IMG/VR virus record: IMGVR_UViG_3300010883_000045
Location: 1-51,970 of that record
From: a virus
Reading direction: 5' to 3' (one strand)
DNA length: 51,970 nucleotides
This document shows, in pieces, positions 7,648-48,132 of this stretch. The position numbers and the translations under genes are program-made. Every line of letters starts with the position of its first letter. Position 1 is the stretch's first letter. The notes beneath the pieces were generated by a model. That model was given only the letters and a program-made list of their open reading frames with translations. It was not told the DNA's origin and did not search any database.

Positions 7648-7670
7648 TTGGACGGGTTAAGATAGGTACT

Positions 7671-8696: not shown

Positions 8697-8760
8697 ATTT
8701 GGCTCCTTGTCCTTGTCCGTGAGCGAAAGTCTCCCTGCCGCTCCGTTTGTCACATCGAGC

Positions 8761-20800: not shown

Positions 20801-23562
20801 TCAACGGCTACCGCAACGAGTGCATCGCCGGCCATGACATGGCCAAAGCCTTCGTCTCCAAAGTCGTCCGCTTTCCAACCGTTTATGTCAAAGAACTGCC
20901 TGCCCTCTGCGGCGGCAGCCTGCTTGTGTGCCTGGTCTTTCTCTAGCCCCTTTCGCCGCCCGCTTATTTTCGCCAAGAGAAGTTTTTTTTCTTCTTCGTC
21001 TATCTCCTGATCCTGACGAATAAACTTCTCGGCATTGTCGAGCTGATCTATGGCGTCATCGACGGGCAGGGTGTTGATGTCATTCTCGACGATCCTTGCC
21101 GCTTCCTGCCACTTCCCCGGCTTGATGGGAATTTTAACCCGACCTTTTCCAGTTATCCCCGATTTCTCGCTAGGTGTGACAGTGTCAGTGACAGGTGCCG
21201 GCGGAGCAGCTTCGGTAATTATCTGGTCCTTCGGTATTTTCAGCAGCTCATTGCCGCCGCGGCCCTTCACGCGGATAGAGACCGATTCGCCCTCATCACG
21301 CCGCACCTTACCAGTGACCGCTTTGCCCGTAGAGGGATGCGTGTATTGCACCGTCTCGCCAGTCTCGTAGGTAATGTCGAACGGAGCTTGCGAGGCATCG
21401 GCCGCCGCGTCGGATCGCTGCTGTGCTGCTACTGCCTCTTGCTCACTGGCCCGGCCGGCCAGGTTCTCGCGTAATGAAGGACCTTTTGGCATCGGTAGTT
21501 CTTCAGGCGACAACGGCCGTGTCGGCGGTTGAGAACCAGGAACAAGTCGTTCCGATACATAAGTCTTCCAATCCTCTGCTGTTTGGGGGCGAACATGCTG
21601 CAGATCCTCCGCGAATTCCTCGGGAGTAAGTGGCCTTTCGTTTGCCGGGTTGCTTAGCGTTTCCCACGCTTCCTTGACATCGTCAGGCAGGGCATATGGC
21701 TGATCCTTAATCATCTGCAGGACGTCGTCTGCATACTCCTGTGCTTCCACATCTTCTGGAGAAGCAACGTCACCTGGTTCGACGCCGACATCTTTGAGTA
21801 CGTTCGTGGCGATCTTCTCAGCGGCGACCTGGTCGGTAGCTGATGGCTTGGGATAGCCAGGGCCAGGTAGGTCGGGTGCAGACGGATCGCTCGGCGGGCC
21901 AGGCGGGCCAGGCGGGCCAGGCGGAGCATCAGCGGGCTGATCGCCGACAAGTTTTCTTACTATAGCGGCACCCGTTCTGGCGATAGCTGGAGCAGCAAAG
22001 CCACCGAACTCCGTGGAAATCTGATAGAGCCCCCTCTTCATGCGTTCCAGATCGCCCGAGAGAACATCCCCCGTGGCACCGTAATCATCTTCGATCCCTA
22101 TGACGCCTCGTAGGATTTCGCCAAAGCGCTCTTCGCCAACTTCCTCAATCAGGCCATCGAAACCGCCTACCTTAAAGACATCGTCGATATGCTGGACCGT
22201 CGCACCATCCAGCTTGAGCGCTTTCGTAACTGCATCCTTGACTTTCTTAGCTGCCCCCTTCGCACCGAGTTTCTTGCCAATGATCCCCAGCACATCGCCG
22301 ATCGACTCGCCAGACATTTCAGAAAAGGCTTCAACGTAGGTATCGCCGAAACCCTTAACGAGAGCTGCAGCAAAATCCTCGCCTTTTTCGCGGGTCTCGA
22401 TGTAGGCACGCCCGCCAGTGATGCCATCCTCTGTTTCCGTGGGAGGCGTAGAATCCCAACGATCAACTTTTAGGATTTCAGGATCTAGCTTGTCGCCCAT
22501 TCTCTGCACAGTGCTTTCAACAACCATGTCAGGCATGAACACTGCACGCGGGGCAGCGTTGATCGCAGCTCCGCCGAGCTTGCTTACTGCCCCAGCAGCT
22601 TTGAACCCTGCTCGACCGAGCTTATCGAAGCCCCGCTTCTTCATGTGCTTGGCCATCATCTTCTTGATGCCGACCTTGAGTGCCGCCTGGGCACCAGCCT
22701 TCGTGCCGAGACCAACAGCAGAAGTCATGCCGCCCGATGCCGCAAACCCTGCCATGAAACCCGGGATCTCGGCAGCTAAGTTAAAGACGATCTGCCCCCA
22801 CCCGCGTTCGTCGATGTTCTTTTGCTGCTGCGTCAGTCCCATGACGACGTTAAAGTCACGCTCGGTTGCATAGCCGGCGTCGATACGCCTCAGTGAGTTA
22901 GCAAGCTCCTCGTAGTTGTTCAGGACCATGGCCGTTCCCACTAACGGAACCTTGCCCAACGTCCATTCAACCCAATCTTCGTCGAAGTCGCCCTTCTCAG
23001 CTCGCTTTTGAGCACTGGTGATCCACTTGTCGTAGTTGACCGCCCGCTCGTCGTCCATTTGCAGGCGAGTCCGCTCATGCCGGTCCCAGATGTTCTTCTC
23101 AACTGCCCACCGGCTATACTCGGGCGTGCTTTCCTGGGGCGGGGCGATTGGGAACGGAGCTGCATCTGGGTCAAGCGGAGCGGCTTCTGGCACCGGCGTA
23201 AGCAGCTTTCGTTCCCGGGCCGGCTCGGGCTCGGGCGGTGCTTCTGGCGGAGGCGGTGCATAGCCGGCCTCGGGAGGAACGTAATCGTCCGGCCGTGGCG
23301 GCGGCGGAGGAGGCGGGGCCTGCGAGTCTGCGAGTGCCAGCATCTCTTCAGGCGTAGTCATTTGCGGGGGCGGCACTTCTTCTGGCTGGGCCGCCTCATC
23401 AGGTAGCGGTGCCTGCAACGCTGGTGGCTCCACCGTTGGCGGAGCGACAACCGGAGCGTACTGCTGCATCAGTTCGTCGAACGTCAGCGTGCCGTCGTCG
23501 GATTCTCCGGGCGGCGGACTGTCGAGCGTAGCCATCAGGTCATCGAAGCTGAGCACACTCAT
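8803..23562 (-). CDS. Giant polyvalent virion protein: ART-like, TGT/DpdA-like, DNA methyltransferase, SBNO helicase, zincin
   Basis: 4,919 residues, more than twice P1 DarB. The ATG overlaps the preceding virion gene (ATGA). Order: two FD[D/E]LM motifs and Pro-rich tail (1-150); Gly/Ala helical region (about 190-540); collagen-like PGPPGPPGPP (about 550); SH3-like modules; ART-like domain with VRLTHFFGN (about 1324); TGT/DpdA-like barrel with IDSGSYSAF (about 1491), MPVQKGR, LLGGGVP and HWGIAGD (about 1655); winged helix; N6-adenine methyltransferase with LEPSAGMGG (2334) and NPPF (2400); Gly/Thr/Pro linker; Strawberry-notch-type helicase with GDGTGVGK (2747), DEAH (2863) and GLGRSHRSNQ (about 3263), plus its LLPIW C-terminal domain; zincin HELGH (4078-4082); hydrophobic helices (about 4265-4550). 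DarB-type proteins are packaged and ejected to protect incoming DNA. That role here is inferred from homology and from its place at the end of the virion operon. Confidence 0.85.
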   Translation of the reverse strand: MSVLSFDDLMATLDSPPPGESDDGTLTFDELMQQYAPVVAPPTVEPPALQAPLPDEAAQPEEVPPPQMTTPEEMLALADSQAPPPPPPPRPDDYVPPEAGYAPPPPEAPPEPEPARERKLLTPVPEAAPLDPDAAPFPIAPPQESTPEYSRWAVEKNIWDRHERTRLQMDDERAVNYDKWITSAQKRAEKGDFDEDWVEWTLGKVPLVGTAMVLNNYEELANSLRRIDAGYATERDFNVVMGLTQQQKNIDERGWGQIVFNLAAEIPGFMAGFAASGGMTSAVGLGTKAGAQAALKVGIKKMMAKHMKKRGFDKLGRAGFKAAGAVSKLGGAAINAAPRAVFMPDMVVESTVQRMGDKLDPEILKVDRWDSTPPTETEDGITGGRAYIETREKGEDFAAALVKGFGDTYVEAFSEMSGESIGDVLGIIGKKLGAKGAAKKVKDAVTKALKLDGATVQHIDDVFKVGGFDGLIEEVGEERFGEILRGVIGIEDDYGATGDVLSGDLERMKRGLYQISTEFGGFAAPAIARTGAAIVRKLVGDQPADAPPGPPGPPGPPSDPSAPDLPGPGYPKPSATDQVAAEKIATNVLKDVGVEPGDVASPEDVEAQEYADDVLQMIKDQPYALPDDVKEAWETLSNPANERPLTPEEFAEDLQHVRPQTAEDWKTYVSERLVPGSQPPTRPLSPEELPMPKGPSLRENLAGRASEQEAVAAQQRSDAAADASQAPFDITYETGETVQYTHPSTGKAVTGKVRRDEGESVSIRVKGRGGNELLKIPKDQIITEAAPPAPVTDTVTPSEKSGITGKGRVKIPIKPGKWQEAARIVENDINTLPVDDAIDQLDNAEKFIRQDQEIDEEEKKLLLAKISGRRKGLEKDQAHKQAAAAEGRQFFDINGWKADDFGDEGFGHVMAGDALVAVAVDGDGRLDPAYNVDDVGIFVNRGPGQAARVRLQNQGGMAPLVFSESKLDDLGIKVEKDAEGVIKQRVPLDALTTKAKRRAVDVIFNEMDVQGREINEGVIDNVAKALDLPASEVKARVHPSKPGKRPGKVPQAKPTVPEIQPATFTEEQLGDIELQAEDDPRGEQVEEEDEAGGIEEILSPGLRRQRSREIIEAGTYKVGDRVILPGGSTATIEESVGERPNNLTARLEDGTLVFPLAYDVKKAPQKRPGKVPQAKPTVPEIQPYNRVLSKEERKYLNDAGYDDAEIRASSLDALRDKMRADKGELRTKRGVDKNPADGKRHIADVVSRWTGDMDAAGAVDEIVRHEETRWGPQYYGQYLKAANDGKGMTLKEAVVEAIDKPKRFQTGDAKEIAAKLPPITEGSVRLTHFFGNPNTVSNVVEGGQDFNYGKRGDVGGSTDAFQTPEEVADVIARGKTGAFTRGDFGPFVLLMDVPFAEHKTHSLSPTRSGSIPNKYVVGVYDTSTGEFRPVKETIEEPEGVSYASGLSRSPTEIRAHIAEGKPVGVSVWLGLSETVRTELVNYANSGGKVFIDSGSYSAFKKKQQVDWAKALFRYGELVNHVDRDKRHNVSLVAPDVIGDPEANEKLLRGPFRKEFEKFFDSGVTIIMPVQKGRGGEQTISTQLADLTDYYPEELNEEYTLGIPFNAAAWNEDEVVQLLKDMGSKHGVKHPIHLLGGGVPKVQSLMARVEEEGITHWGIAGDAETKEISERRRGKKKLGKVGATGPKWFRKIMKAAELPKIGSKKKTKFEVAKRAMEDYGVKGIGSWDRLARELAELKAGIPQTLDRLREGPITYQDLDDLLADHPRAVYEAVHVLHQKGVIALLDGAEGTTKRGKPNRAYILPEAELARMLQDKYDASEGQVEKAIEQVNADIGEEFWGVSEKKTPRRAFLFRDYLDPAKWTKKGRQILLAPELTEDEIAAKIEEAFAAQEEAGKLPEEKKPVKRPGNRKKTQTPEQKAASLKKRIATLKRNGTLDDSDVKLLEDKLDADLGSVGGVFNEAERRAAEHNVKQQEDRDQFTTVFGRNSDKLVARARRSEGDAAGVKNFDVQVAPLRDDPSIAPTIYGLADRLGDGDIENGLWEVLKGGVAQFKLKKADDFLPDVMEEARAGLKDEPYEETEGDTDFQFGANVKDEPIKPGGKTKLGDAAQKARGEAKDSLQDLRDALGEEGFFGSTPINPKIVSAVARSVAKSIKAGVLTFAEFLETVINEFGVTMTRKIRSELEQGWTFAGGIVGDGVLDKANPTVTSQLMLASWVEGKLNENDEAIGSPDFFQAANEMFGGTRSEGKYGDSEAYDALELGVNKYIRNTLAIQPTGTAEQAKESIAILEKLGKRLPKHKTRTGEKDTLQQFSTPPAYGFLAAWALNLSENSVVLEPSAGMGGLAVHAINSGADVYTNEIDKARAGPLSALSPEKVFTEDAEQIAAILPDQMPPITDAIMNPPFSRAGRRMGNKIQTGTDRKHIDQVLKLLPDGGRVSAIVGAGLHGRGKGFDNWLADLPYAVVADVEIGRDVYKGYGTTFPTRLLVIDKKPGDNVDRVTGSVATLAEAVDLLEGVRNARSERISDKGTEEVPGSEGTASRPGTPTGVVGTSQPAEPGAVPSEPVSGTASGTTPATGRPGGTTGTGSPGGSGTSVRRPGGRRPGRRGQPSTTGDTSGREPVRKPAGEDTEPTSTRGKLDVKPLKVSAAEKTTVGILDDSTYQPYQPSVIVEGSTTHPASLVESAAMAAISSPKPTYAPRINQETVKGYVTEGGVHVGISDIQLEAVVNAGQAHEQMLPDGKRRGFMIGDGTGVGKAREIAGIIQDNFNRGRTKAVWVSKNDKLLKPAKEEWEKVGGHHKEVFPHNKSTKSGASIDKSDGILFTTYSTLRTTASTQAIAAGNVLSRVDQIVEWFGEDYDGVIVFDEAHQMQSGITSGTGLSRKEASSQALAGIDLQDRLPLARIVYLSATSATEVSNLAYATRLGLWGEDTAFETRDKFIAAIAAGGVGAMEQTAGDMKAMGMYLARNISFNDGTKKGKVEYERLEHKLTPSQTTAYSKMADAWQVVYTNIEEALGTTGQTGRAASQARSQFRAAQLRFGNSVITSMQTPVVIQAIEADMAAGRSSIVQLTNTNEAALTRAIGRQAGEETEEDLEALDLSPGYILMDYLERSFPTQQYETYIDANGNERTRPVVDSQGKPVHNPEAVAAKERLLDELSGAMESAGQGALDMIIEHFGADNVAEITGRSERLVHDKDGKLIRQKRKPANLESDANDFMDGEKRILIFSEAGGTGASYHADLSRKNQQKRHHYLLQAGWRADVAIQGLGRSHRSNQAQAPKFFLIQTNLKGQKRFISTIARRLGQLGALTKGERKAGESGVFSAADNLESTEARAALASLFHAMLRGETGAYDMEFLNTRMGLKLLNEDGTVKAQWPTIQQFLNRVLTLGVEQQNEFYEMFDQRVIAHTEAAIEGGTLDQGMETVKADSITKVSEEVVYTHETGSETKHVVMSVGKKTKPVGWEEMLEATADRNNGYVRSAKTGRVAIIRGTGVTDQDRHGNMTERLKLLYPTSYSYSTAAKLEGDNWTRVDEKVARKNWGEQVANTPAMQHEEMHIISGVLLPIWNKLPATHPQVRRLLTDDGEHILGRHIDEDDVYEVLTRLGVAVDAPQLTPQEAFTLIFDDGGSITLANDWQIKRVRAEGETSIEIVGPTAEDFDPLETKGAFRRRIDYRVRHFVPTDESGVRVLEQLINDNAIIGVRRGSRRSTDQDQPAATTPTPRPPIRPGRKAKGARREPDLAGAMESLEAAGEADRIPMKGYGPVGAARKKPKDFSAPSSTPGVMGKVIPIEEDVGRLRAVQQEVLKAINPPKVSKISETAEQINREAFARTSQAKTALFHELRKYRRYMRKLNRKQVVDFIDAVEHGPKEVAKLKDKKLRELAVVFREMLDDLRGRVQKLGYLSKFDEYYFPHAWKLGQQDKAREFMGQARAPLSGSKAFLKKRTIPTFREGVEQRQLEPVSWNPVDMVYSKAGEILKFLEANAIIEGHGRAGLTQFVYEKSKPPADWVKINDPLFTIFAKPWVEVDEHFDALLIEQLDSFATSIGVSHERLMKLPGGALGQASRDGKITTKFGSTEGTYIHELGHQLGYKYNLFEWMLQQKEGSYRTITKGPRAGQQEFREERSSIDNRKKIKEQWRALALARLDAEKDVTDSRRRYILKEAEKEAVLLEAYIHAPDLMKKIAPDVHTLYEKFLNAHSELKPLLGIRPSLTRGTSTGQVPVPGVTTLGHYYMPENAARLLNNHLSPGFWQHPHAGVRGAYGATRAVGNSVNQAQLFSLFHATFATISTPATYTGQALRNLSTFQPRMMVKGIGQLALAATVVGPMLKLATSGAELRKKGFHKRAEQITDKYIAKMVEAAAVGGFHAEADAFYFNQSPDRISKLLETMLNDPSLAKTVGSAVRLPFTTISAALEAGMKPMMQHYVPALKAGMFQMLVEDEMERLGTQDLSDATLKRMLTKATDSVDNRLGQLPYDNLFWNRYLKDLAMISTRAVGWNLGFIREYVIGPVYDLATTKQRLAEGDAVVSLRMGEFFGSVFYIGAVGAILQYVMTGVPPEELKDYYFPKTGGTRPDGSPARLSLPDYARDYISYLTRPLTTLQHKTHPLIGIMSELAHNQDYFGNEIKNEDDPWVQQFKDTAEHVGKALLPFSVKQYEEYRKDNVAPVKAAVLSTFGIGVAPGYISKSSAQILMGQMLAERRMEGSRDKQAKERSELRREAIKRMREHRSLVDLNLYDTFNEDAMKRMRREASRPWFTVNFERLTTQEAFNVYMIATDKERNESALLLAKKFFQHESDHTDRSQDDWRAMSDIFRELWPDLRQRAKREDSDKFLDVLYDVSKVVASEMGHPRKIKGESDSEYAGRVEDFIAWHNQLSRFITELSGYAPLRDALRKGSFKRKLSPRKGETHQDYRDRVDRTKVRWRE
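20015..20434. repeat. Exact 54-bp direct repeat inside the giant gene (20015-20068 and 20381-20434)
   Basis: Both copies begin GGCTGTATCTCTGGCACGGT and are identical over 54 bases. On the coding strand each encodes KRPGKVPQAKPTVPEIQP, a Pro/Lys linker flanking an SH3-like module. The identity at DNA level points to recent duplication or gene conversion of the 366-bp unit, and recombination between copies would delete in frame (366 is divisible by 3). Confidence 0.9.
21171..21236. repeat. Copy A of a 66-bp dispersed direct repeat (within the giant gene)
   Basis: 64 of 66 bases match 49098-49163, same orientation. It starts TAGGTGTGACAGTGTCAGTG and contains the small palindrome TGACA-G-TGTCA. 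Here it encodes the segment PKDQIITEAAPPAPVTDTVT of the giant protein, a linker after an SH3-like module. Confidence 0.92.
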
Positions 23563-32223: not shown

Positions 32224-33680
32224 CAGTGACACCCCTCCGTGTCAACAAAGTATGAACCGTCTGTCACCTTCTTGATTTGTATGTATGTTCCTACGCCAAT
32301 GGAGCCCCTGACCATATTAAACACTTCAACTACTACGTCCTCACCCGCTTGGTTTTTCTTGGGACTATACCTATTGTATTTCTTACTTCTAAAAAATTCA
32401 GGAGGCCCCGGAGAGGGTTCGTAAAGCACGGCCGAGCCAACGCCGCATAGTATGTCTCCGTGAGGCGGGTTGGCAGCTGGGTCAAAGAAAGCACCGTTGA
32501 TCTCTAAGATTACTTTCACTATGTTTCCCTCTGGCCCTTCCCTCCACTCCACCTGCCCCTGCCCTTCGTGGGTCAAGTATTGTATTTCTTCGTCGTCGTA
32601 TTCCGCCATACCCCTGAGTAGCACTGGAAGATTGTAAGCAGTAGTGACATCCCACTTCCCCAGGGTGCCCGTGCCGCTTAGGTCCCACCTAGCGTAAACA
32701 AGATCACCAGAGTCAACCCAGATCGGCTCCGCTGCCCGTGCAGTGACAACTTCGGTTGGACTCGAAACCGGAGTTTCGCCGTCGATTGCAGCGATGTTGT
32801 TAATCGACACCGACCCGCTACTAGGGTGGTAATCTTGTGTAGCAAGGCCATTGATCCAACCAAAGCGTCGCTTGGAACGTAAGTTACCCGGCGAACCCGT
32901 GTCGTACTCAAGGCCAGAAAGGTCCGCCAGGTCTGTCTTTATAATCGAGCCGTAGATATTGATTCCGTCGCCGGCTATGTACTTCTGACCTCCGCTAGTA
33001 CCACCGCCACCCGTGCCCGTGCCTGGGCCAGGGCCAGGCTGGTCGCCGGGGTCAACGCCCGATGGCGGTATTGCAATCTCTACCTCTGCCTCTGCCTCCG
33101 GGACTGAGCCTGACCCGTAATTGTGCGTAACATTGCTGACCACGGGGACGTAACCGCAAGTGCCGTTGCCCGTCCCTTCCAGAGAGCCGGTTTTCTCTCG
33201 CAAGACATACCCCGTGCCGACCGGCATGTTGACGCTATTATCGACCAAAGTAAGGTGCGTGGCGTCTTGCCAAGAGAGTACATCTACTGGCAGGGCCGTG
33301 CCGTTTACGTCGATGGTCATGGTGGCATTAGTAGACCAGTCAGCGAAAGTCGTGTCTGATCCAATGACAGCACCGGCGACAATCTCAACCGTGCCACCAA
33401 TTCCCCGCCGGCGAGTCGGGTCGAATATCGACAGGATTGCTTGGCCGGGCAAGGCACGGTAATACTCGTCAACATACACGGCGGTTGCCACGCCATCTGT
33501 GTAGTGCGAAGTCAGGCAAGTCCTAGTCTGGTAAGGCAGATCAAAGGCAGGTTCGTCTGGCCCTTGCGGTGGGCCGGGGAAGCCCAGTGACTCAAAGACA
33601 GCGTTCACTTGGCGGGCCAAGTCCTGCACATTCACACAGGATGACGGGTTAATCATCGGCCGGTTAAGCGAAATGGCCAT
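32223..33680 (-). CDS. Tail fibre-like protein with Gly-rich hinge
   Basis: 485 residues. An N-terminal domain (MAISLNRPMINPSSCVNVQD, then a beta-rich DEYYRALPGQAILSIFDPTR) is followed by repeated Glu-Val and a Pro/Gly hinge (about residues 210-240, GPGPGTGTGGGGTSGG). The fibre-like signature KYIAGDGINIYGSIIKTDLA and LSGLEYDTGSPGNLRSK then appears, and a C-terminal beta-rich domain. The G-D-G-I-x-I-x-G ... D-L-x-x-x-S-G-L-E-x-D pattern is typical of phage fibre shafts. The start overlaps the upstream stop (TAATG). Confidence 0.65.
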   Translation of the reverse strand: MAISLNRPMINPSSCVNVQDLARQVNAVFESLGFPGPPQGPDEPAFDLPYQTRTCLTSHYTDGVATAVYVDEYYRALPGQAILSIFDPTRRRGIGGTVEIVAGAVIGSDTTFADWSTNATMTIDVNGTALPVDVLSWQDATHLTLVDNSVNMPVGTGYVLREKTGSLEGTGNGTCGYVPVVSNVTHNYGSGSVPEAEAEVEIAIPPSGVDPGDQPGPGPGTGTGGGGTSGGQKYIAGDGINIYGSIIKTDLADLSGLEYDTGSPGNLRSKRRFGWINGLATQDYHPSSGSVSINNIAAIDGETPVSSPTEVVTARAAEPIWVDSGDLVYARWDLSGTGTLGKWDVTTAYNLPVLLRGMAEYDDEEIQYLTHEGQGQVEWREGPEGNIVKVILEINGAFFDPAANPPHGDILCGVGSAVLYEPSPGPPEFFRSKKYNRYSPKKNQAGEDVVVEVFNMVRGSIGVGTYIQIKKVTDGSYFVDTEGCH

Positions 33681-35248
33681 TACATAATCCTCCGCCGGCT
33701 CTTGGGGTAAGACTCAGCTAGAATCTCCTCCACTGAGATCCGTCCCAGCCCCGTGCCGCTAATCACAATGTAAGCCACTCGGCCGCGGGTCCGTGGATGT
33801 TGCCAGTAATTGAAACCCTGTCGGTCCCAGTCGGCACCTGTGAACGCCGCAGTGCTATTGATTGCTTCTTCCTCGCTGTCTCCGGTCCGCACTTCCCAGT
33901 TCACATTCGACGAGTTTGCAGCCAACGTGGCCGTCACCCTAGCCAAAACTCCGTCATCAAAAGCAGAGCTTAGTTCGATCGGCCCGTATGCCAGTGTTGA
34001 AGTTATCAACTCCGATTGCGGTTCTTCCAGGCTGTAGTGCCAGGCACGTCCATCAATATCATGGACGACAATGCCTCCCCTTTCTTCGCTAGCGGTGGAT
34101 TTTAAGGCGACATTCATCACAGGGACTACGCTGCTACTGTCCATCTCCCAGAAAGAGGGGGGCATGCTAGGATTGCGACTTGGAGGAACAAAGAACCACC
34201 ACTTCGTTTTTACAGGCGTGAATGAGGAGGTCAGGTTTGGTCGATCTAGCATGGGTCTCTCAGTGATCGTAATATGCACGCCACCAAAGCGGCCGTCCCA
34301 GGCCAAACTGCAGTAATCGCCGGGTGTGATATCGAGATTCCGCAGCTCGTCAGGCACATGATTGTCGCTAATCTGTTCGGGAATCGCACCGCAACCCGGA
34401 GGTATAATGAACAAACCCTCGCGGGTCATAAACACCGTGTCTTCACTGCCGGTCTTGCACCACGCTTGTTGGGAGAGCGGGCCAATCTGATGGGACAGTG
34501 TCTCCAAAGATCCGCCGACCCTTGGATTGCCCCTCACGATATACAAGGAGTCCGTACAGCCGACAAGCAGGCAAGCCCGATTATGGCTAATCAAGCTCGT
34601 AATCGGCTCACCAACACGGCCTTCGCCTCCGCCTGCGTTAGCAATCGCTGCTCCTGCATGAACCGCACTGTAATCCCAATTAGTCGCGTCATCGACAGCG
34701 GACATATAGAGAGCATGTGGGAAATTCTTGTCGCCCGCCAAAACGAGACGATTCTGATGCGTATTCACTAGGCCACAGTTAGTCGGAACAACACCCCTGT
34801 TTGCAGGAGCAGTGAGTACGGAAAACCCAGTGCCTCCCAAGGTGTGATACCAGACTTGCGAGAGTTCCGAAGATGCCTGGTAGATCGTATCCCGGTAATT
34901 AACGCAAGAAGCAAGCGGACCATCGGGTCGAACAGTAATGATCCTGGAGAATTCTATGCCGTCATTTGTAAGAAAGGTGCCCACCTTGCACGTAAAAGCA
35001 TAACCGCGACCACCACTCCACTCCGCAATACACGAATTAAGTGCTCCACCCATTAGCAGAGTCGGCTCGCCTGCTCGGCCATCGACTAGCCCAGCCCGAG
35101 TGCCACCCCTGGCCCGCTCCGTGCCCGGTTGACGAGGCCAGATATTCAGAGCCAGCGGAGTCGTGCCCTTTAGCTGGCCAGCATACCCAGCCGCGGAGTT
35201 GTAGCCGTTGATAGGAAACGGCATGACGTTCTGATTAGCCTTGGCCAA
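33680..35248 (-). CDS. Beta-propeller-like tail protein
   Basis: 522 residues. It starts at TTG 35248 with AGGTGG four bases upstream, and no nearer ATG has a better site. The repeated blade-like strands include TLLMGGALNSCIAEWSGGRG, the short core SLYIVRGNPRVGG, and TVFMTREGLFIIPPGCGAIP followed by ISDNHVPDELRN. The order '...D-S-L-Y-I-V-R-G-x-P...G-P-x-S-Q-Q-A-W-C...D-x-V-F-M-T-R-E-G-L-F...' matches tail tubular/nozzle-type proteins that I know from short-tailed phages. A T7 gp12-like role at the tail tip is likely but inferred. Confidence 0.7.
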   Translation of the reverse strand: MAKANQNVMPFPINGYNSAAGYAGQLKGTTPLALNIWPRQPGTERARGGTRAGLVDGRAGEPTLLMGGALNSCIAEWSGGRGYAFTCKVGTFLTNDGIEFSRIITVRPDGPLASCVNYRDTIYQASSELSQVWYHTLGGTGFSVLTAPANRGVVPTNCGLVNTHQNRLVLAGDKNFPHALYMSAVDDATNWDYSAVHAGAAIANAGGGEGRVGEPITSLISHNRACLLVGCTDSLYIVRGNPRVGGSLETLSHQIGPLSQQAWCKTGSEDTVFMTREGLFIIPPGCGAIPEQISDNHVPDELRNLDITPGDYCSLAWDGRFGGVHITITERPMLDRPNLTSSFTPVKTKWWFFVPPSRNPSMPPSFWEMDSSSVVPVMNVALKSTASEERGGIVVHDIDGRAWHYSLEEPQSELITSTLAYGPIELSSAFDDGVLARVTATLAANSSNVNWEVRTGDSEEEAINSTAAFTGADWDRQGFNYWQHPRTRGRVAYIVISGTGLGRISVEEILAESYPKSRRRIM

Positions 35249-35648: not shown

Positions 35649-38570
35649 TCAGCCCTCTCTAATGTAAGTGACTAAGTTTCCGTCGAACGTATGCCAATCC
35701 AGCGACCCTTCGGAGCCGTCAACGCTGTGATCTCGCATAGGGCCGAGATTGCCGCCGCAGGAAACGCGACGGTCGTGACCGATACTGGCCACCATCCTTC
35801 TCTCGTATTCAGCCTTGTGCGGTCCAGGAACGCCGCGGGCTAGCTCGGCAGCAGCCAAGCAAGACTCGATTAGCGTCTGTGCATGAGCCTGCCCACCAGG
35901 CGGCAGTGCCGCTTCGTCGTCCAGCAAACTCGGATTGATGAAGTACGGGTAATTCAGGTCATACGCCGCATCAGGCGTAGGGTAAAACAAGACCTCATAC
36001 CTGGTGCCTGCCTGTTCTTCCGTGTTGATCTTCACTCGCAGAGCTGCCAACAGTGGCCGAGCGGACGTGACCGACAACTGCTGACGGTATCGCACCCGCT
36101 CCTCGCTAGTGACCTGTATGCGTGGGTACAGCACTGACTGGCCGGCGGCGTAGGTAAACGCACCATTAAGCGATGCGAAATCGTCCGGCATGTCATAGAT
36201 GTACTGGCCAGAGACCAACGCAAGCGTTGACGTGGGAGCCATGAACTTCCAGAAGTGCGGCGAGCGTTCGCCAGGCATGGTCGGCGGATTGTAGAAGTTC
36301 CGCATACCAGTGCGGAGCACTTCTAAGATTTCAGACTTCTCGCTATGTGTCCAAGTAACACTGTTCGAGCCAAAGAGCAGGTAATTCCCAATAGTACGCT
36401 TCAAGTAAGCCTTGCTGACTTCGAGCGTACCAGTCTCGCCTTCCAGGTTCGTCGCTCCCCAGCTAGCCAGGCTGCCCATGCGTGATATGCTTTTGCGGTC
36501 CAGCTCCACCGAAGAGACCAACATCGCCCCATAACTTTCGGTATGTGGCCGCTTTTCGGCGTTGGTCTGGCTTTCCGCAGCAACTAAACAGCTCTCTACG
36601 ATCGTCTGCGAGTGAGCCATGCCACCAAGCGGCAAGGGGTTCTCCGTTGTCAGCAAGGGAGGCTCGAAGATGTAACGGTATTCAATCGTGATCGCCGAGT
36701 CTGCTGTCGGGTACAAGAGCACTTCATGCTCAGAATTCCCGCCTTCTCGCGTGCGGACAGCATAGTAAAGCGGAGTCGCCTGCAACGTGTCAGTAGCCTG
36801 CAGGGCTCGCAGTTCTGTCTCGCCAATCTCTAGCAAGGGCGTACTGGCCGTGGCACTCGTAATCAATAACGACGAAGAAAGTTTAGTGAAATCGGTTGGT
36901 AGCTTTACGGCCTCGTCGCCAAGTACCAGGTTCAATGATGCAGTACGCTCTAGGAAACTCCAACTATACTGCTCGTTTGTTTTGGGGTCAGGGACAGGCC
37001 AGTAGAAATTCCGTAGCCCTGTGCGTAATGCCTCGCCAATCTCCGCTGTCTGGCTGTGCGTCCAGGATATGTCGTTAGAGCCAAAGCCAAACTGCCGACC
37101 AATCACACGCTCTAGGTACTGCTTATTGACTGCAAGCGTGCCAGTCTCGCCTTGCAGGTTCGTCGCTCCCCAACTCGACAAACCAAAGCTATCGGATGTG
37201 CTTTTCTTGTCCAGCTCTACAGAAGAGACAAGCATGGCACCGAAACGGCCGGCATGTTCTTTGCTTTCACTATCAAGCCAACTTTCCACGGCTGCCAGGC
37301 AGCTTTCAATCAACGTCTGCGCATGAGCGGCACCGCCAAGCGGGACTGGGCTGTCTTCCGTCAGTAGCGGAGCCTCAAAGGCATAGCGGTACTCGATCGT
37401 AATTGCCGCGTCCGCCAAGGGGTGCAGTAATACCTCGTACTCTGACTTACCCTCGTCCCTAGTGCGAATTGCGTAGTAGAGAGGAGTGCCTTGAGTTGTG
37501 TCGGCAGCCTGCAAGGCCCGCAGCTCGCCCTCACTGATTTCCAAGAGCGGCGACTTGTCTGCCGAGCCTGTAATAAGCAAGCTGGAAGTCAGCTTCGTGA
37601 AGTTGTCGGGAAGCCTCACCACCCCGACGCCGGCCGTGAGAGACAGGGCTGCGCTCTTCTTTAGAAAGGACCAACAGTATTGCTCGTTTGTCTTTGGGTC
37701 CGGCACAGGCCAGTAGAATTGACGTAAGCCTGTTCGGAGGATTTCGTTTACTTCAGCCCTTTGGGAGTGCGTCCAAACAATCTTGTTTGGCCCGTACTGC
37801 AGATCCCGGCCGATTATTCGCTCAAGGTAGTCACGATTGACTTCCAGGGTGCCCGTCTCGCCGTCAAGGTCGGCTGCGTCCCAGCTAACTGACGCATCAG
37901 CGGGCTTGCTCTTGCGGTCTAGCTCGATCGACGACACCAGGGCCGCAGAGAATAGTTCCGAGTGCCGGGATTCCGCAGATTCAGAATCCAGGATATTTTC
38001 GGCGGCTGCCAGGCACGCTTCCATAATCGTTTGGGCATGAGCTGCCCCGCCATGGGGCGTAGGGTCTGTCGATGTGACCCTTGCAGGCTCAAAGATGTAG
38101 CGATACTGAATTGTCGTTGCGGCGGACGTTGCGGGATGGAATAGGATTTCGTTGTCGTCTTTGCCTGGCTCCTTTGTGCGAATCGCATAGTAGATCGGCG
38201 TACCCTGATTCACATCGCCAGCTTGCAATGCCCGCAGTTCACCCTCTCCGATCTCTACTAGCGGTGCGTTCCCGATGCTGCTGGTAATCAGCATTGAGGA
38301 AGTGATCTTGGTGAAGTCGGCAGCTAACGTCGCCACATCTTCGCCGGACTGCAAAGTGATCGTACCGCTACGCTCTAGGAAGCTCCAACTATACTGCTCG
38401 CTCGTCTTGGCGTCAGGGACAGGCCAATAGAACTTACGCATGCCAGCGTCGATGATGTCATCTACGTCAACGACAGCTGTAGCCGAAAGCTCAGAGGCAG
38501 TGCGACTAGCACCGATGAAGCGAGAGACTGTTCGCCGGAGTTCGTCGTAAGTTAGAGTAAATGCCGACAT
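35649..38570 (-). CDS. Head-tail adaptor protein made of four tandem domain repeats
   Basis: 973 residues from ATG 38570 (a GTG two codons earlier is possible; both have weak sites). A domain of about 237 residues is repeated four times, each beginning with a helix and the motif 'G-[ML]-R-x-F-Y-[W/N]-P'. The copies are MRKFYWPVPDAK, LRQFYWPVPDPK, LRNFYWPVPDPK and MRNFYNPPTMPG, 711-714 bp apart. Each copy also repeats 'S-x-L-I-T-x', 'G-E-x-E-L-R-A-L-Q-A', '[TA]-P-x-Y-Y-A-[IV]-R-T', 'F-E-P' and 'G-G-x-A-H-[AS]-Q-T-[IL]-x-E-[SA]-C-L-A-A'. Repeat 4 is the most divergent. A single copy is the length of the usual tail-adaptor (gp11-like/DUF6682-type) proteins that form a 12-fold ring below the portal. 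I infer that role from the unit. Confidence 0.8.
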   Translation of the reverse strand: MSAFTLTYDELRRTVSRFIGASRTASELSATAVVDVDDIIDAGMRKFYWPVPDAKTSEQYSWSFLERSGTITLQSGEDVATLAADFTKITSSMLITSSIGNAPLVEIGEGELRALQAGDVNQGTPIYYAIRTKEPGKDDNEILFHPATSAATTIQYRYIFEPARVTSTDPTPHGGAAHAQTIMEACLAAAENILDSESAESRHSELFSAALVSSIELDRKSKPADASVSWDAADLDGETGTLEVNRDYLERIIGRDLQYGPNKIVWTHSQRAEVNEILRTGLRQFYWPVPDPKTNEQYCWSFLKKSAALSLTAGVGVVRLPDNFTKLTSSLLITGSADKSPLLEISEGELRALQAADTTQGTPLYYAIRTRDEGKSEYEVLLHPLADAAITIEYRYAFEAPLLTEDSPVPLGGAAHAQTLIESCLAAVESWLDSESKEHAGRFGAMLVSSVELDKKSTSDSFGLSSWGATNLQGETGTLAVNKQYLERVIGRQFGFGSNDISWTHSQTAEIGEALRTGLRNFYWPVPDPKTNEQYSWSFLERTASLNLVLGDEAVKLPTDFTKLSSSLLITSATASTPLLEIGETELRALQATDTLQATPLYYAVRTREGGNSEHEVLLYPTADSAITIEYRYIFEPPLLTTENPLPLGGMAHSQTIVESCLVAAESQTNAEKRPHTESYGAMLVSSVELDRKSISRMGSLASWGATNLEGETGTLEVSKAYLKRTIGNYLLFGSNSVTWTHSEKSEILEVLRTGMRNFYNPPTMPGERSPHFWKFMAPTSTLALVSGQYIYDMPDDFASLNGAFTYAAGQSVLYPRIQVTSEERVRYRQQLSVTSARPLLAALRVKINTEEQAGTRYEVLFYPTPDAAYDLNYPYFINPSLLDDEAALPPGGQAHAQTLIESCLAAAELARGVPGPHKAEYERRMVASIGHDRRVSCGGNLGPMRDHSVDGSEGSLDWHTFDGNLVTYIREG

Positions 38571-38601
38571 AAGCACGAACGTCCATGTTTCGTGAAGGTA
38601 A

Positions 38602-40090: not shown

Positions 40091-40930
40091 TTATTGCTCC
40101 TGGTACACAGCCCACCAGTTCAGGTTCAAGTCCTGCGCCACTGCACCGCCGTTCTTGAAGCCACACAGCAACGACAGGAAATCGCCGTTAGGGAAGTTAG
40201 CAGCGACATCCATCAGGGTCGCCGTGACATACGTGGACTGCACTGCACCGTTCACGTATATCGCAATCTTCTTGGCGTCTTCCGCGTCTGGATCGTAGAC
40301 AAAACCCAGCTTAACGGCAGCGTCAACTACGGGCACATGAACTGTAGGAATCAAGACCGTCTGGGCACCACCTGTCTTGTTGTAGACAAAGTCCATCTTA
40401 TCGCCGTCAGCCTGGTCAATGTGGAACCCGATGTAGTCCTTATTGACCAGGTTGGCATCGGTGTCCGTTAAAGTTTCAACGACAGCCATGCCGACCTCGC
40501 CAAGGCCGACGAACATACCCGAGCTATTGTTACCGATCTGGCCCTTGGAAATCTCCGCTTCAAACACAGTCAACTTGTCCTGGCCTGCAGTGCGAGAAAT
40601 CCGAGCTTGAGCACCAACACCGCCGGCACCCTGGACCCATACTTCATCGTTATCAGTCCCATCGGTGGTCAACGTGATGCCACCTAGACGAGTTGCGTTG
40701 GCTAGGATCGTATTCGACGAATCGACGTAAGTGCCGTAGCCCTGGTTAGTGGAAGTGGTCGTGCCAGGAGCACCCCAGTTCTGGAAGCGATCTTCCCAGT
40801 AAAACGCACTGCGGCCGCTGCCAGCCGACATTTCGGATTCGATAGCCTTTTCCCAAACCTTCGGGGAGCGATAGTCGTTCGACTGCCCCTGATGAATGGT
40901 GTAAAGGTTTTCGGGTCGTAAACCATACAT
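40091..40930 (-). CDS. ConA-like (LamG-type) head decoration or fibre protein
   Basis: 279 residues, GGAGG about nine bases upstream of ATG 40930. The first 45 residues (MYGLRPENLYTIHQGQSNDY) look like a capsid- or virion-anchoring arm. Residues about 90-279 are a beta-sandwich: FEAEISKGQIGNNSSGMFVG, DYIGFHIDQADGDKMDFVYN, VKLGFVYDPDAEDAKKIAIY and VNGAVQSTYV with a final LNLNWWAVYQEQ. This is the classical concanavalin A/LamG strand pattern. It follows the major capsid gene directly, the usual place for a decoration protein. Sugar binding is possible but unproven. Confidence 0.7.
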   Translation of the reverse strand: MYGLRPENLYTIHQGQSNDYRSPKVWEKAIESEMSAGSGRSAFYWEDRFQNWGAPGTTTSTNQGYGTYVDSSNTILANATRLGGITLTTDGTDNDEVWVQGAGGVGAQARISRTAGQDKLTVFEAEISKGQIGNNSSGMFVGLGEVGMAVVETLTDTDANLVNKDYIGFHIDQADGDKMDFVYNKTGGAQTVLIPTVHVPVVDAAVKLGFVYDPDAEDAKKIAIYVNGAVQSTYVTATLMDVAANFPNGDFLSLLCGFKNGGAVAQDLNLNWWAVYQEQ

Positions 40931-41014: not shown

Positions 41015-42067
41015 TCAAGCGATGTTACCTACGAAGCCGGTTCGACGGTTGTAATTGGCGTAGTTCATCCAGTTGTCGTAATGAACTTCACGAACGCTGT
41101 GCTGTCGAGCAGCTGCCTTCGGCGGGTTACGCCGCATATTCCGTCCCTTTTTGGTGAAAGGCCGGAAGTCTTTCCAGCTAATTCCATAGAGAGGATCTGA
41201 CGTATCGTTGTTCTCCAAGTAGGAGACCCACTTCATGGGAACACGGCCGACTGTGACTGCGTCCATGTAGCGTGCAACGTCCGCACCCAAGTTCTCGTTG
41301 CGAGTCTCAGCGATCGCTTCGAGTGGCTCCTGGACACGGTAGGTCGTGTAAATCTTGTACTTCGCTTCCCCATACCCCAGCTCGGGGTGACGGTTGGGGG
41401 CTTCGAAGTTGGTCATTGCGATAGAACGCTTCAACCTGGCAACCAAGTCATCCAGGGTGTAGGACGTATATCCGAAGGTCCAGTTGCTATACTGGGGGTA
41501 ATCCGTTGAACTGATGCCAGCACAACCGCCCGTAAAGCCGGCGGGATTGCCGCCGTTCAGGCCGCCTGTCGGCGTCGTGGTAGGATCCTTCACGTACCAA
41601 TACGGAATACCAAACGGGCGATTGTCATTCGCTCCGCTTGGCAGCGACCATAGGTTCGTCTCCTGCAGCTCGGACATATCGTTCATAGCCGAGTGTTGAC
41701 GGATCATCAGCTCTTTGATGATCGTCTCAGGGTCGCTTTGGAACTCAGGCTCATCAATGTCGTAACTGAAATTGACGGTCTGCTTACGCCATGGAACCGT
41801 ACCAGTCACCATGATGTCTTCAACCTTGGTGATATCTTCGGCGTACATATCAGTATTCCGGGCATTGCCCATGTTCTTGACTTGCACGCGGAAGCTCAAC
41901 TGGGTGCCGCCACGTTCCTCGACACCCATGGTCTTTATCATGTCCTGGGAGCAGTAATTCTGCTTGTCCATGGATATATCAGTCCACTTGCCTTTCTTGA
42001 ATAAGGGAAGTGTTGTCTGAACCAAGTCATCCAGCGCATCTGGGGACAACGGAGGAGCATTAGCCAT
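41015..42067 (-). CDS. Major capsid protein (HK97-fold)
   Basis: 350 residues, TAGGAG upstream of the ATG. It sits directly after the scaffold gene in transcription order, as expected. N-terminal arm MANAPPLSPDALDDLVQTTL, then DISMDKQNYCSQDMIKTMGV, an E-loop-like segment (GGTQLSFRVQVKNMGNARNT), and a P-domain region with SIAMTNFEAPNRHPELGYGE and IYTTYRVQEPLEAIAETRNE. 'VPMKWVSYLENND...DPLYGISWKDFRPFTKKG' is the near-C-terminal signature of this capsid subfamily found in environmental short-tailed phages. It assembles the icosahedral head on the portal. Confidence 0.85.
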   Translation of the reverse strand: MANAPPLSPDALDDLVQTTLPLFKKGKWTDISMDKQNYCSQDMIKTMGVEERGGTQLSFRVQVKNMGNARNTDMYAEDITKVEDIMVTGTVPWRKQTVNFSYDIDEPEFQSDPETIIKELMIRQHSAMNDMSELQETNLWSLPSGANDNRPFGIPYWYVKDPTTTPTGGLNGGNPAGFTGGCAGISSTDYPQYSNWTFGYTSYTLDDLVARLKRSIAMTNFEAPNRHPELGYGEAKYKIYTTYRVQEPLEAIAETRNENLGADVARYMDAVTVGRVPMKWVSYLENNDTSDPLYGISWKDFRPFTKKGRNMRRNPPKAAARQHSVREVHYDNWMNYANYNRRTGFVGNIA

Positions 42068-43310: not shown

Positions 43311-43778
43311 CTATGTATTTTTATTAGGGAACCTAGAAAGGACCTGCGACTGGCTCCGTAAAACCTGCTCCGGCGTCAAGCCGTGCCCGCTTCCATTGCG
43401 GCTACTGCGATCGTGCATGTGGAGATGGCCAAGATATGACGCCTTGGTTTCAGGCGTCATGTGCGCCTGGTAGAACTCGGGAACCATGGGATCAGGCTTG
43501 AAAGTCACGTCATAGCCATGCGATAAACAGTCCTGCCGGGCCGCGTCCACCTGGCCAAAGCCGACGCCCAAGGCATCGCTGACAATCATACCCGACTTGT
43601 TCATCTCGATTGCCCGCTGCTTGGGCTGCTTTTTCTCCGCGGGACGCTGGTAAACAGCTGAGACAATCTTTCCGTCAATACCGATCTCAATGCCGCCAGA
43701 CGGATCACGGTTAATCATCGTCTGGTAGTCTACCTCGATAATCTCGCCGGTGTCTTCACGCTTAAAGAAGTGTTTCAT
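43311..43778 (-). CDS. Hypothetical head-module protein (155 aa)
   Basis: AGGAG seven bases upstream; the ATG overlaps the portal stop (TAATG). MKHFFKREDTGEIIEVDYQT opens with a beta hairpin. A middle segment (MNKSGMIVSDALGVGFGQVD) and a His-rich helix (KASYLGHLHMHDRSSRNGSG) follow. It sits between portal and scaffold, where small head proteins of unknown role are common. No catalytic motif identified. Confidence 0.65.
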   Translation of the reverse strand: MKHFFKREDTGEIIEVDYQTMINRDPSGGIEIGIDGKIVSAVYQRPAEKKQPKQRAIEMNKSGMIVSDALGVGFGQVDAARQDCLSHGYDVTFKPDPMVPEFYQAHMTPETKASYLGHLHMHDRSSRNGSGHGLTPEQVLRSQSQVLSRFPNKNT

Positions 43779-45622
43779 TAGTAAGCTCCTGCTCCGTTGC
43801 TGTCGCCGTTCGCACTCGCTACGCCGGTCCAGTTCTGTTGGCTTTGTATTCGCTTGCCTTCCTCAGTTCCTCCGTTGGACACGGACTGCCGCACATAGTT
43901 CCGAGTAGTCTCGCCTTGCTTTGAACGTGTGCTTGTTTTCGGCTGGTCTTCTTTACCTTTCACATCTTTATCGAACCTCACGATCTGGTGAAGTTGCGGT
44001 ATGTTAAGCATTTCAGCGTAAATATCAGTGAGCCGCGAGAAGTCGATTTGCCCGCCTTGCTGGGCCACCTGTTCCTGGAGGGGGAGGTAGACGTTCTGCA
44101 GTAAGCCATTGATAGCCTGCACCTTTTCAGAGGGCGGCTGGAACGCCATGGAATGCGTGGCGACTTCCAGGTTGTATTGGATGAAGTTACCTTCGCGGTC
44201 GCCCGGCTTCCAGCTCGAATCAACCTGCTTGCCCTGCTGGCCGGCAACGGGGATCGTACTGGCGATTTCCTTAAACTCGTCGGCCCACATCAGTTGCCCG
44301 AGACCCGAAATAAGCTGGTTCGTAGCTGCAAGGACGCGATACTGCAATGCACCGCCGCGGCGATTGCTAGCACCGTGGATCAACTGCTCCTGGCCAACTG
44401 TGTCTGTCTGAGCACCCAGGCCAAGCATAGCCGTGATGTTGCCGCCTTGCGTGTCGAGCATTCCCAATGTGTCTTGCAAGAACGCTTGCAAGCTCGGGTC
44501 AATGCCGCCGAGCTGCCGAGGTACAACGCCATCAGGGTTATCCGAGCAGACCAAATCTCCATCGTTTGCTTGCTGACCCCTTTTGGCATCTTCCTCTGAA
44601 CCAGGTGCAAAAAAGTTGACGTTCTTGGCTCGCCGGGCCTTGTTCGCCTGCTTATTCATTATCAAGTTAGCCAGGCGGTCGAGCGGTTCTATGTCGCCCG
44701 CAGTGCTGGTCGGCATGACCTCGCCCGAAACCTCATCCAACTGCAGCAAGACAAAAGGCCCCAGTTCAGGACCTTTCCACGGAAACCCGCCCAGTGGGTT
44801 CGGCCTGATTTCAAACGTGGAGCGGTCCAGGACTGGGAACGTCTTGATCTGACCCTCTTTGGCGATCCAGATGTCGGCAACGTCAATCGGCGGATCGTAC
44901 TCAGACTGGTTGACTTCTGCTCCGCCAATCAGTTCATCCGCCCGATGGCCCTGGCCAAGCCGGCTGCGGTCAGGCGTCAGCGTGTCAGCAACCTTCTTGT
45001 CGTACATGCCGTCTTCAACGCCCTGCTTGAGGTCGTCCATTGTGATCTGGTACATATCACCCTGGAACCTAGCGGCTTCGATGTTCGATGCTGTTACGTC
45101 ATAAACGTAATCATCAAGCAGGACATTGCTGGCAAACGGTGAGCCGGGGTCCATGGACAGGTCGCCTTCATTGGCGACGTAGCCGGAGTCGGCCAGGTGC
45201 AACTTGCACACCCCCATGCACATAAACGAATCAAAGATCCATCGTCTTAGCGTTTTCTCAATAACGATCTCTTTAAGCAGGTTATTGAGATTGATCTGGA
45301 AATGATGCGAAAACGCCGTCAACGCCAGGTAATCACTAGAGATGTTTACGTGCGGCCGACTGCCGCCCAGCAATACCATGTGAGCGATGACTGACTGGCG
45401 GACTTTATTGAGATACTTAGGCAATCGCTTTTGAGCGGAGCCGTAAGTCGGGCCGACATAGGATTCGACCATCTTGCGGTTCAGTGATCGGAAGGGATCG
45501 AGAGCCATGTAACTGCTCTTGATTGCGTCTCGTAGCGAACCGTAGCTGCTGTCGCCCGTTGCTTTCGTTGTACCGGAGCCCTCGCGGGCTCGCATATGCA
45601 CGTCGCTTTGTTTAGGACCCAT
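43778..45622 (-). CDS. Portal protein
   Basis: 614 residues from ATG 45622, chosen because GAAGG lies seven bases upstream; the earlier ATG at 45637 has no site. Typical podovirus portal features are SYMALDPFRSLNRKMVESYV near the N-terminus (stem/wing), repeated long helices (LNNLLKEIVIEKTLRRWIFD) and DPGSPFASNVLLDDYVYDVT. A conserved segment 'GDIEPLDRLANLIMNKQANK' leads into a Gly/Asn-rich loop, then TQGGNITAMLGLG and VLAATNQLISGLGQLMWADE. The C-terminus is Gln/Ser-rich. The dodecameric portal is the DNA entry channel and binds the adaptor protein. It is assigned from order (TerL, one gene, portal, scaffold, capsid) and length. Confidence 0.85.
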   Translation of the reverse strand: MGPKQSDVHMRAREGSGTTKATGDSSYGSLRDAIKSSYMALDPFRSLNRKMVESYVGPTYGSAQKRLPKYLNKVRQSVIAHMVLLGGSRPHVNISSDYLALTAFSHHFQINLNNLLKEIVIEKTLRRWIFDSFMCMGVCKLHLADSGYVANEGDLSMDPGSPFASNVLLDDYVYDVTASNIEAARFQGDMYQITMDDLKQGVEDGMYDKKVADTLTPDRSRLGQGHRADELIGGAEVNQSEYDPPIDVADIWIAKEGQIKTFPVLDRSTFEIRPNPLGGFPWKGPELGPFVLLQLDEVSGEVMPTSTAGDIEPLDRLANLIMNKQANKARRAKNVNFFAPGSEEDAKRGQQANDGDLVCSDNPDGVVPRQLGGIDPSLQAFLQDTLGMLDTQGGNITAMLGLGAQTDTVGQEQLIHGASNRRGGALQYRVLAATNQLISGLGQLMWADEFKEIASTIPVAGQQGKQVDSSWKPGDREGNFIQYNLEVATHSMAFQPPSEKVQAINGLLQNVYLPLQEQVAQQGGQIDFSRLTDIYAEMLNIPQLHQIVRFDKDVKGKEDQPKTSTRSKQGETTRNYVRQSVSNGGTEEGKRIQSQQNWTGVASANGDSNGAGAY

Positions 45623-45651
45623 CGCTTTGCCTTCCATGGCGATCTTTGCAA

Positions 45652-46182: not shown

Positions 46183-48132
46183 TTAGGTCCATCCAGCCAG
46201 GCCATCTTCTACCTCAACATCAATAAGCCAGCCAGCCTCGCCTTTCTTGTCGTCCTTTTCGTATTGCATCTCCCGCCAAGCCAATGTTCCAGACGGCGGA
46301 TCCTTCGACAATCGCGTTGTCTCCTCCTTCTTGGAGACCTTGGGCCGGTCCTTCATCGCCTGGATTGCTACTCCAAAGCCGATGACACGGTCGCCGTGAT
46401 TGTCTGCTGTCTCACTGGGATTCGATGTACCGACCGACTTCACATGGACGATCTTCTCGCCGTCTAGTACGTACTGCGAAGTCTCGTTTGCCAGCTCCGG
46501 CGAACGAATGATGTAATCGCCCACGCATACCCCGTTGCGAACACCGCCAAACAGAACACTGCGAGTCTCCCGGTTGGACAGCCAGCCAGGCTTAGTGCGA
46601 TGCTTTCGCTGCTTGCTTCGTCGCCAGAGTATTGTTCGCATGTAGATATTCGGGTACATCTGCTCCAGGACTCGCCGGCCGAACTCGTTGCCGGGTCCGT
46701 TCGACTCCCAAGCCAAGTAAGCGTTGAAGAACAGTTTGGAAAGTGCGATCACCATATCGGCAAACTCAGTCGGGCGGACAATACACGTAGCGATCTCAGC
46801 AACCTGCTCGCCCGTGTTCTGATCCAAGACAATCGCCGTAGAGTTAGACGTGTAACTCCCCCCGGTGCCCGTAGATATATCGCAACCTATCACGTAGTCT
46901 CGGTGCGGCGGCATGCCCATGTGATCTAACTCGCACCACAGTCTGCAATCTCCGCCTTCTACTGATTCAAACTCTGGCGTTAAATCCTCTGTATCAAAAA
47001 TGATCCGGCCGACCTGCCGGGATGGCTGCGTGTAACGATTGGCAGCTTTGGCGAACGTGTCGCCGAAGTAGAGCGTTGTGCTACCTCCGTAATCTATGTC
47101 TAACTCTTGAGCAATCGACGAAGGAGTAGAGCCAGGGCGATCGCACTGCAGGTCATACCATTCGCTGCGGACACTCTTCGTCAGATTAAACCCCTTACGC
47201 TCTAACCGTCGCCAGCGATCCTTAGCTTCCGGCGTGGGCGGGTCGTAACTGCCTGGCAGTGGGTTTTCACTAGGTTCTACTGCGACAGGTTTTCCATTCT
47301 CGAAGCGATAGAGTCCACGGTTCTTGGAAATGTTTTTGGACCAGTGGACAGTAAACTTCTTCATGCCCGAATCTTCGAGCTGCATAATGCTGTAGTATGC
47401 TCCGCGTGCCCCATAGGGCGTTCCCACTATAAGACGCGAATCCGTCGTGCTCAAGAGTGCGGTAATGGCGTTGTAGTCATTGCCTTCGCGGAACTTAGAC
47501 AGCTCATCCATAAGCACCCATGTCTTACGACCGCCCGAGCCAACTTCGCCTGTCGCGGCCCAGCTGACGATCGTGGAATTCATGCGGTAGTTAAGCAGTG
47601 AATGCTTTGACCGATCTCGCTTCCAATCTACCTTTTCGATGCCGACCATCCAGGGCGGCATCTGCGTTAGCTCCCAGTCGATCTTCCAGAATAGACTATC
47701 AGGGTCGTCTGGATTGTCGCCGGCCAGCTCGTTGCGAGAGACCATGCCAATCGCAGATAACTCCTGGAATGTCCAGTCATGCAGTGCCAAGAGAGCACCA
47801 ATCCAGCTCAACCCTTCACCGCGGGACTTCTCCACGCCGGCGTCTTCCACTCCCAGCAAGGCACGTAGGTCATCAATGAGCTGGACCTGGTGCGGCCAGG
47901 GAATGAAGGGAACCTTGTTCGGCTTGCGAGTGCCATCACTGAAGTAGCGGCGACGAGGCTCGAACAACCAGCAGAACGCGGAGAGCCAGAAAAGAACGTC
48001 TTCTTTACAGACTTCCATGATCTCGCGGCGGAAGCCTCTATCTAATTCGCAGCGAATGCGCAGGTCGTCTCGATAAACTATGTTTGCAGCATAGTCCGAG
48101 GGGATGGACCTAAAGTGTTCCGTCTGCGCCAT
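46183..48132 (-). CDS. terL: Terminase large subunit
   Basis: 649 residues. The ATPase has PWPHQVQLIDD (adenine-binding area, about 79-88), a variant Walker A KSRGEGLSW (about 102-110) of the K-S-R-x-x-G-x-S-W type, and Walker B WVLMDE (205-210). The middle has SRLIVGTPYGARGAYYSIM (coupling motif). The nuclease domain has VIGCDISTGTGGSYTSNSTA (first catalytic Asp), a Glu-containing WESNGPGNEFG, and a C-terminal Asp (VSVGTSNPSETADNHGDRVI region). It cuts concatemeric DNA and pumps it into the procapsid with ATP. The small subunit gene precedes it. The ribosome site is weak. Confidence 0.9.
   Translation of the reverse strand: MAQTEHFRSIPSDYAANIVYRDDLRIRCELDRGFRREIMEVCKEDVLFWLSAFCWLFEPRRRYFSDGTRKPNKVPFIPWPHQVQLIDDLRALLGVEDAGVEKSRGEGLSWIGALLALHDWTFQELSAIGMVSRNELAGDNPDDPDSLFWKIDWELTQMPPWMVGIEKVDWKRDRSKHSLLNYRMNSTIVSWAATGEVGSGGRKTWVLMDELSKFREGNDYNAITALLSTTDSRLIVGTPYGARGAYYSIMQLEDSGMKKFTVHWSKNISKNRGLYRFENGKPVAVEPSENPLPGSYDPPTPEAKDRWRRLERKGFNLTKSVRSEWYDLQCDRPGSTPSSIAQELDIDYGGSTTLYFGDTFAKAANRYTQPSRQVGRIIFDTEDLTPEFESVEGGDCRLWCELDHMGMPPHRDYVIGCDISTGTGGSYTSNSTAIVLDQNTGEQVAEIATCIVRPTEFADMVIALSKLFFNAYLAWESNGPGNEFGRRVLEQMYPNIYMRTILWRRSKQRKHRTKPGWLSNRETRSVLFGGVRNGVCVGDYIIRSPELANETSQYVLDGEKIVHVKSVGTSNPSETADNHGDRVIGFGVAIQAMKDRPKVSKKEETTRLSKDPPSGTLAWREMQYEKDDKKGEAGWLIDVEVEDGLAGWT

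Follow-up and report, generated by a model that had tools for sequence, protein, structure and literature searches.

The virus record IMGVR_UViG_3300010883_000045, of which the whole stretch of 51,970 nucleotides was analysed (hereafter the window), contains a gene for a head-tail adaptor with four tandem units in a single reading frame. In its single-unit form the adaptor is a ring of twelve individual chains that connects the phage head with the tail, in a neck where a 12-fold portal meets a sixfold nozzle. The solved adaptors in the open-access literature that we searched always have one unit per chain, and no description of a fused multi-unit adaptor was found there. The comparison with about 180 related loci revealed a natural series from one to four units, and it is discussed below how such chains may be arranged in the neck.

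Structure and identity of the four-unit adaptor

The adaptor frame (35649-38576, minus strand; Table 1) is uninterrupted, with neither an internal stop nor an internal frameshift. Its ATG, two codons downstream of the GTG, fits the N-terminus of the family (MAESTLSLTY...) better. The FY[WN]P motif starts at residues 49, 287, 524 and 761, which corresponds to a spacing of 238, 237 and 237 aa (714, 711 and 711 bp). Four stretches of the protein match the Pfam family SU10_adaptor (PF24175; E 3.4e-37 for the whole protein), and each of them exceeds the curated cut-off individually (E 2.7e-14 to 7.2e-9, more than 27 bits each). The regular spacing and the four profile matches bear out the original prediction of four tandem copies in one frame, and the four-repeat structure is confirmed to be far beyond chance. 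The units have diverged to different extents: units 2 and 3 are 66% identical with each other and 51% and 49% identical with unit 1, whereas unit 4 shares 27% with unit 1 and 27-36% with units 1-3 overall.

Table 1. Units, linkers and neighbouring structural genes of the four-unit adaptor.
Feature	Positions	Strand	Description	Basis
Four-unit head-tail adaptor gene	35649..38576	minus	GTG start at 38576 (975 aa) or ATG start at 38570 (973 aa)	
Unit 1	37911..38549	minus	A type, canonical N-terminus, without C-terminal arm	profile match
Linker 1-2	37830..37910	minus	27 aa, SWDAADLDGETGTLEV	
Unit 2	37203..37829	minus	A type	unit modelled at pLDDT 90.8
Linker 2-3	37119..37202	minus	28 aa	
Unit 3	36492..37118	minus	A type	profile match
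Linker 3-4	36408..36491	minus	28 aa	mostly pLDDT <50 in two-unit model
Unit 4	35766..36407	minus	B type, resembles single-unit adaptors	profile and tree
Unit 4 C-terminal tail	35652..35765	minus	38 aa; position equivalent to portal-embracing arm of SU10/T7 adaptors	
Terminase large subunit (context)	46183..48132	minus		PHROG 2, E 1.9e-14
Portal protein (context)	43778..45637	minus	homologues in related loci	weak SU10_portal match
Putative major capsid protein (context)	41015..42067	minus	61% identity with the L037 protein; 39 homologous ORFs among the loci	role inferred from synteny
Nozzle-like tail protein (context)	33680..35248	minus	homologues in many adaptor-bearing loci	weak PHROG 376 tail match

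The model of unit 2, built from an alignment of 48 sequences, is a four-helix bundle with a beta dock domain. Its comparison with solved structures agrees with the proposed kinship to gp11-like adaptors: it matches the SU10 adaptor (PDB 7z47) with a Foldseek E of 8e-8 and a Z score of 13.2 (rmsd 3.8, 199 residues aligned) and T7 gp11 with a Z score of 9.4. The top fold matches in the PDB are the adaptors of VP1, Pa223, A4 and SU10 (Z 13-14), followed by those of GP4, KHP30, Kp7, N4 and T7 and the ring proteins of crAss001 (Z 8-11). A PDB search with the adaptor sequence returned no adaptor match, and the adaptors were found by fold comparison alone.

The order of genes in the direction of transcription is terminase large subunit, portal, putative capsid, four-unit adaptor, a 123-aa protein and the nozzle-like tail protein, and the same terminase-portal-capsid-adaptor-nozzle order is present among the homologues in relatives. 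Sequence profile, fold and the place between the putative capsid and nozzle genes thus support the identity originally assigned, and the protein is filed as a variant of the SU10/T7 gp11-type head-tail adaptor despite its four units per chain. With SU10 gp11 and T7 gp11 it shares the sequence family, the four-helix bundle with beta dock, a C-terminal tail with the length and position of the arm, the gene order near the nozzle and, by homology, the position between portal and nozzle. In SU10 and T7, twelve chains of one unit each make the ring; here each chain comprises four units, only one of which has such a tail.

The gene that immediately follows the putative capsid gene (40091-40930, minus strand) encodes a possible head decoration protein, which has homologues in related loci and a weak concanavalin-like match (Laminin_G_3).

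Distribution and evolution of the adaptor units

The full-length adaptor as a query gave no match in viral contigs or cultured phages, and relatives in IMG/VR were retrieved with profiles of the adaptor units. The following counts refer to loci (L numbers) and not to independent viruses, because several loci are one contig taken twice. A single adaptor unit is present in 157 of the 186 loci, among them L037, the closest relative by capsid protein (61% identity). Two units are fused in L063, L064, L070 and L175 and encoded by two adjacent genes in L024; three are fused in L061 and encoded by three adjacent genes in L103-L105, and L149 has at least three units at a contig end. A second four-unit chain was found in the distant virus L007, which is of the same kind as the partial loci L006, L057, L069 and L101. 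The original statement that no such quadrupled adaptor is known has therefore to give way to a graded series of one, two, three and four units, which also provides the one-, two- and four-unit homologues that the survey was meant to find. A five-unit form was not seen among the 186 loci. L056, L080, L087 and L093-L095, initially considered as two-unit candidates, actually have one unit each, which contains an insert or is interrupted by a break of the frame.

A frame that is split in other isolates had been named as a reason to doubt the fusion. No near-identical isolate of the window virus was found; the distant loci L058-L060 do distribute four units over three genes (2+1+1). An assembly or sequencing artefact fusing separate genes is highly improbable. 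The record is a single metagenomic contig for which no near-identical copy was found, but the four-unit chain of L007 lies independently on another contig, accompanied by the partial L006, L057 and L069, and fused chains of three (L061) and two units (L063, L064, L070, L175) exist as well. The units of the window moreover differ by at least 34% and hence are not assembly repeats.

L100 (4599-9794) has three units with a broken middle one. The break lies in the dock domain, near the site of a 55-aa insert carried by many relatives; the first half of the unit ends a 355-aa gene and the second half is part of a 639-aa gene; the two genes inserted between them are possibly fibre-like. A split protein and a chimeric assembly are both compatible with this arrangement, and an Rfam search of L100 gave no match explaining the broken adaptor. 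One contig of Cerasicoccus (Verrucomicrobiota) and one of Phycisphaerae also encode relatives of the adaptor, making hosts of the window virus in that part of the bacterial tree possible.

The C-terminal arm is the most conspicuous difference between the units. Single adaptors have a tail of about 39 residues beyond the last helix (median of 179 genes), and in the adaptors of SU10 (PMC9509320) and T7 (PMC6702177) the C-terminal part embraces the portal. Every complete multi-unit system examined has one such tail, carried either by the last unit or by the product of one of the genes. The remaining units are followed by linkers of 18-28 residues where they are fused and have short ends of 5-23 residues where they are encoded separately. 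In the window a tail of arm-like length and position is confined to unit 4, for which portal contact is expected by homology. Units 1-3 are derived copies with linkers of 27-28 residues in place of the arm, and unit 4 is the conventional one. The originally proposed specialisation of the copies is thus supported by the sequence, but in the reverse direction, because unit 4 had been regarded as the deviating copy due to the missing Trp in its FYNP motif. The corresponding column is variable in the family; W marks units 1-3 and is found in only two of 152 single-unit relatives, and hence unit 4 has lost nothing.

The linkers of several viruses follow a common pattern with an aromatic residue. 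Some genes of L058 and L103-L105 start with a P-TYGTYxWL-like segment. Its similarity to the linkers in the fused chains of L007 and L061 suggests a later split of a fused gene. The dock domain is extended by an insert of some 55 residues in many single adaptors and several last units (unit 4 of L007 and L058, unit 3 of L061, unit 2 of L070, L018, L037 and others) and in no arm-less unit examined; unit 4 of the window is devoid of it, though its relative L037 has the insert. L033 (2267-2998) is the sole arm-less single adaptor among those examined and clusters with the first gene of L024, which is likewise arm-less; a partner may thus have disappeared or been overlooked.

Better topologies than those of the quick trees exist, and the relationships reported here are from a careful tree, whose bootstrap was not settled and whose backbone is weak. 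In this tree, unit 4 of the window is placed among single adaptors including L037 and together with the second unit of the two-unit L070 (100/90), and units 1-3 form one clade (100/100) adjoining an arm-less unit of L104 (99/80). The favoured scenario is an ancestor with one A and one B unit and a subsequent amplification of A in the window (AB to AAAB). It is unproven, since neither a single origin of all four window units (p 0.39) nor one of all A units (p 0.11, quick tree) was rejected. Units 2 and 3 of L007 are sister to each other (100/94), which indicates that the four-unit chain has probably arisen twice, in the window and in L007. The two units of L175 are located within the single adaptors of their own clade (99/98), and judging from this position the two-unit form of L175 is an independent duplication.

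Arrangement of the chains in the neck

We modestly favour a single ring over stacked rings and give about an even chance to an arrangement in which three chains form one pseudo-12-fold ring. In-frame duplications would have fused four ring units of an SU10/T7 gp11-kind adaptor into one chain, and three of these chains would close the ring under the portal. The linkers, presumably on the portal-facing side, would tie neighbouring units, and the portal would be embraced by three arms only, one from each copy of unit 4; units 1-3 would retain the ring scaffold, with their dock domains drifting. The advantage may be fewer assembly steps and a fixed order of units. T7 gp11 is a monomer whose ring is formed only on the portal (PMC6702177), so that a fused chain could cut the docking events from twelve to three. 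Just short of even is the chance of the more general proposal that the 12-position neck ring is built from 12, 6, 4 or 3 chains in viruses related by descent, the portal arms and conserved fibre docks being reduced from twelve to three and the neck becoming truly threefold.

A tentative alternative, to which we give somewhat less credence, is a barrel of twelve chains in which the units form four stacked dodecameric rings, with unit 4 by the portal and unit 1 by the nozzle, resulting in a longer neck. A precedent exists in crAss001 with five stacked rings from four paralogous adaptor-fold proteins (PMC10172136), whose ring chains match the unit model, as do two different chains of phage GP4. 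Podophages are said to carry one to three dodecameric adaptors (PMC11784390). The presence of a single arm per system even where the units are separate genes (L024, L103-L105) counts against one ring and suits stacked rings. Three-unit systems occur and are about as frequent as four-unit ones, and the poor fit of a 4 x 3 ring to the hexameric nozzle is a further point against the single ring. The copy numbers themselves do not discriminate, because 2, 3 and 4 all divide 12.

The geometry of the linkers points in the other direction. T7-type adaptors are up-down four-helix bundles with the C-terminal helix toward the portal (PMC6702177), and, deduced from this topology, the N- and C-termini of a unit are both expected to face the portal. 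A lateral hop to the neighbouring unit would suit linkers of 18-28 aa, whereas in stacked rings they would have to climb about 46 Å (estimated from about 23 nm per five crAss001 rings; PMC10172136), that is the full ring height, even where they comprise only 18-20 aa as in L061 and L007. Each unit of the window keeps about the same fraction of the positions that are conserved in single adaptors and presumed, from topology, to be on the portal side (0.81, 0.88, 0.88 and 0.88 in units 1-4). Contrary to what stacking would predict, the middle units of the series keep them as well as singles do (0.80 vs 0.80), and the difference between last and first units is small (0.045, p 0.066). Conservation of the nozzle is unchanged in multi-unit systems and gives no sign of an altered partner, and the single-unit adaptor of L037 also speaks against a stacked barrel. 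With regard to the loss of arms, the portals of multi-unit systems show a slight drop in conservation in two stretches of their C-terminal part. The two-unit AlphaFold model (pTM 0.50) has a disordered linker and does not fix the relative placement of the units.

The dock domains behave differently from the helix bundle, with 0.55-0.63 of the conserved positions kept in units 1-3 vs 0.84 in unit 4. Their divergence and the flexible linkers (pLDDT <50) would be in agreement with a protease that releases single adaptors from the chain, or with a twelve-chain ring containing one unit per chain and the rest hanging outside. This explanation is improbable, given that units 1-3 retain the conserved positions of the helix bundle and that the linkers share their aromatic pattern in several viruses. 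Asp222 (unit-model numbering) is kept in all 20 A units, which, like the divergence of units 1-3 mainly in their dock domains, speaks for a single ring.

Known systems resemble parts of this architecture. The tail rings of T5 pb6 (tail tube) and pb3 (baseplate hub) originate from duplication and fusion of a ring domain, which is repeated in one chain, and three chains make a pseudo-sixfold ring (PMC10038345), a precedent for a single ring of fused units; they differ from the window in fold, in place (tail tube) and in having two units instead of four. The ring proteins R1-R5 of phicrAss001 exemplify several paralogous adaptor-fold units per genome, but these are separate genes whose products form stacked rings, whereas the units of the window are fused in one chain. 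Separately encoded paralogous units are absent from the window and present in L024, L103-L105 and partly L058-L060. More than one adaptor paralogue per genome has likewise been reported as dual tubeA (tail tubular protein A) of phiGT1 and Bcep22-like phages, which unlike the window have separate, unfused genes united by recombination of distant lineages (PMC10386132).

The natural series of one to four units amounts to an experiment, already at hand, on the determinants of ring size and symmetry. It bears on the need for all twelve arms to hold the portal and on the question whether the number of fibres tracks that of docking units. If the rings are stacked, the chain would be a crAss001-like barrel in one piece and a route to lengthening a short tail.

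Further genes of the window

The window also harbors a giant gene (8803-23562, minus strand) for a protein of 4919 aa, which has a Strawberry-notch type helicase (AAA_34 and Helicase_C_4) in its middle part and no Pfam match elsewhere; the protein is possibly injected along with the DNA. The adjoining stretch at 5100-8789 (minus strand) encodes a ResIII/DEAD helicase and an ERF-family recombination protein.
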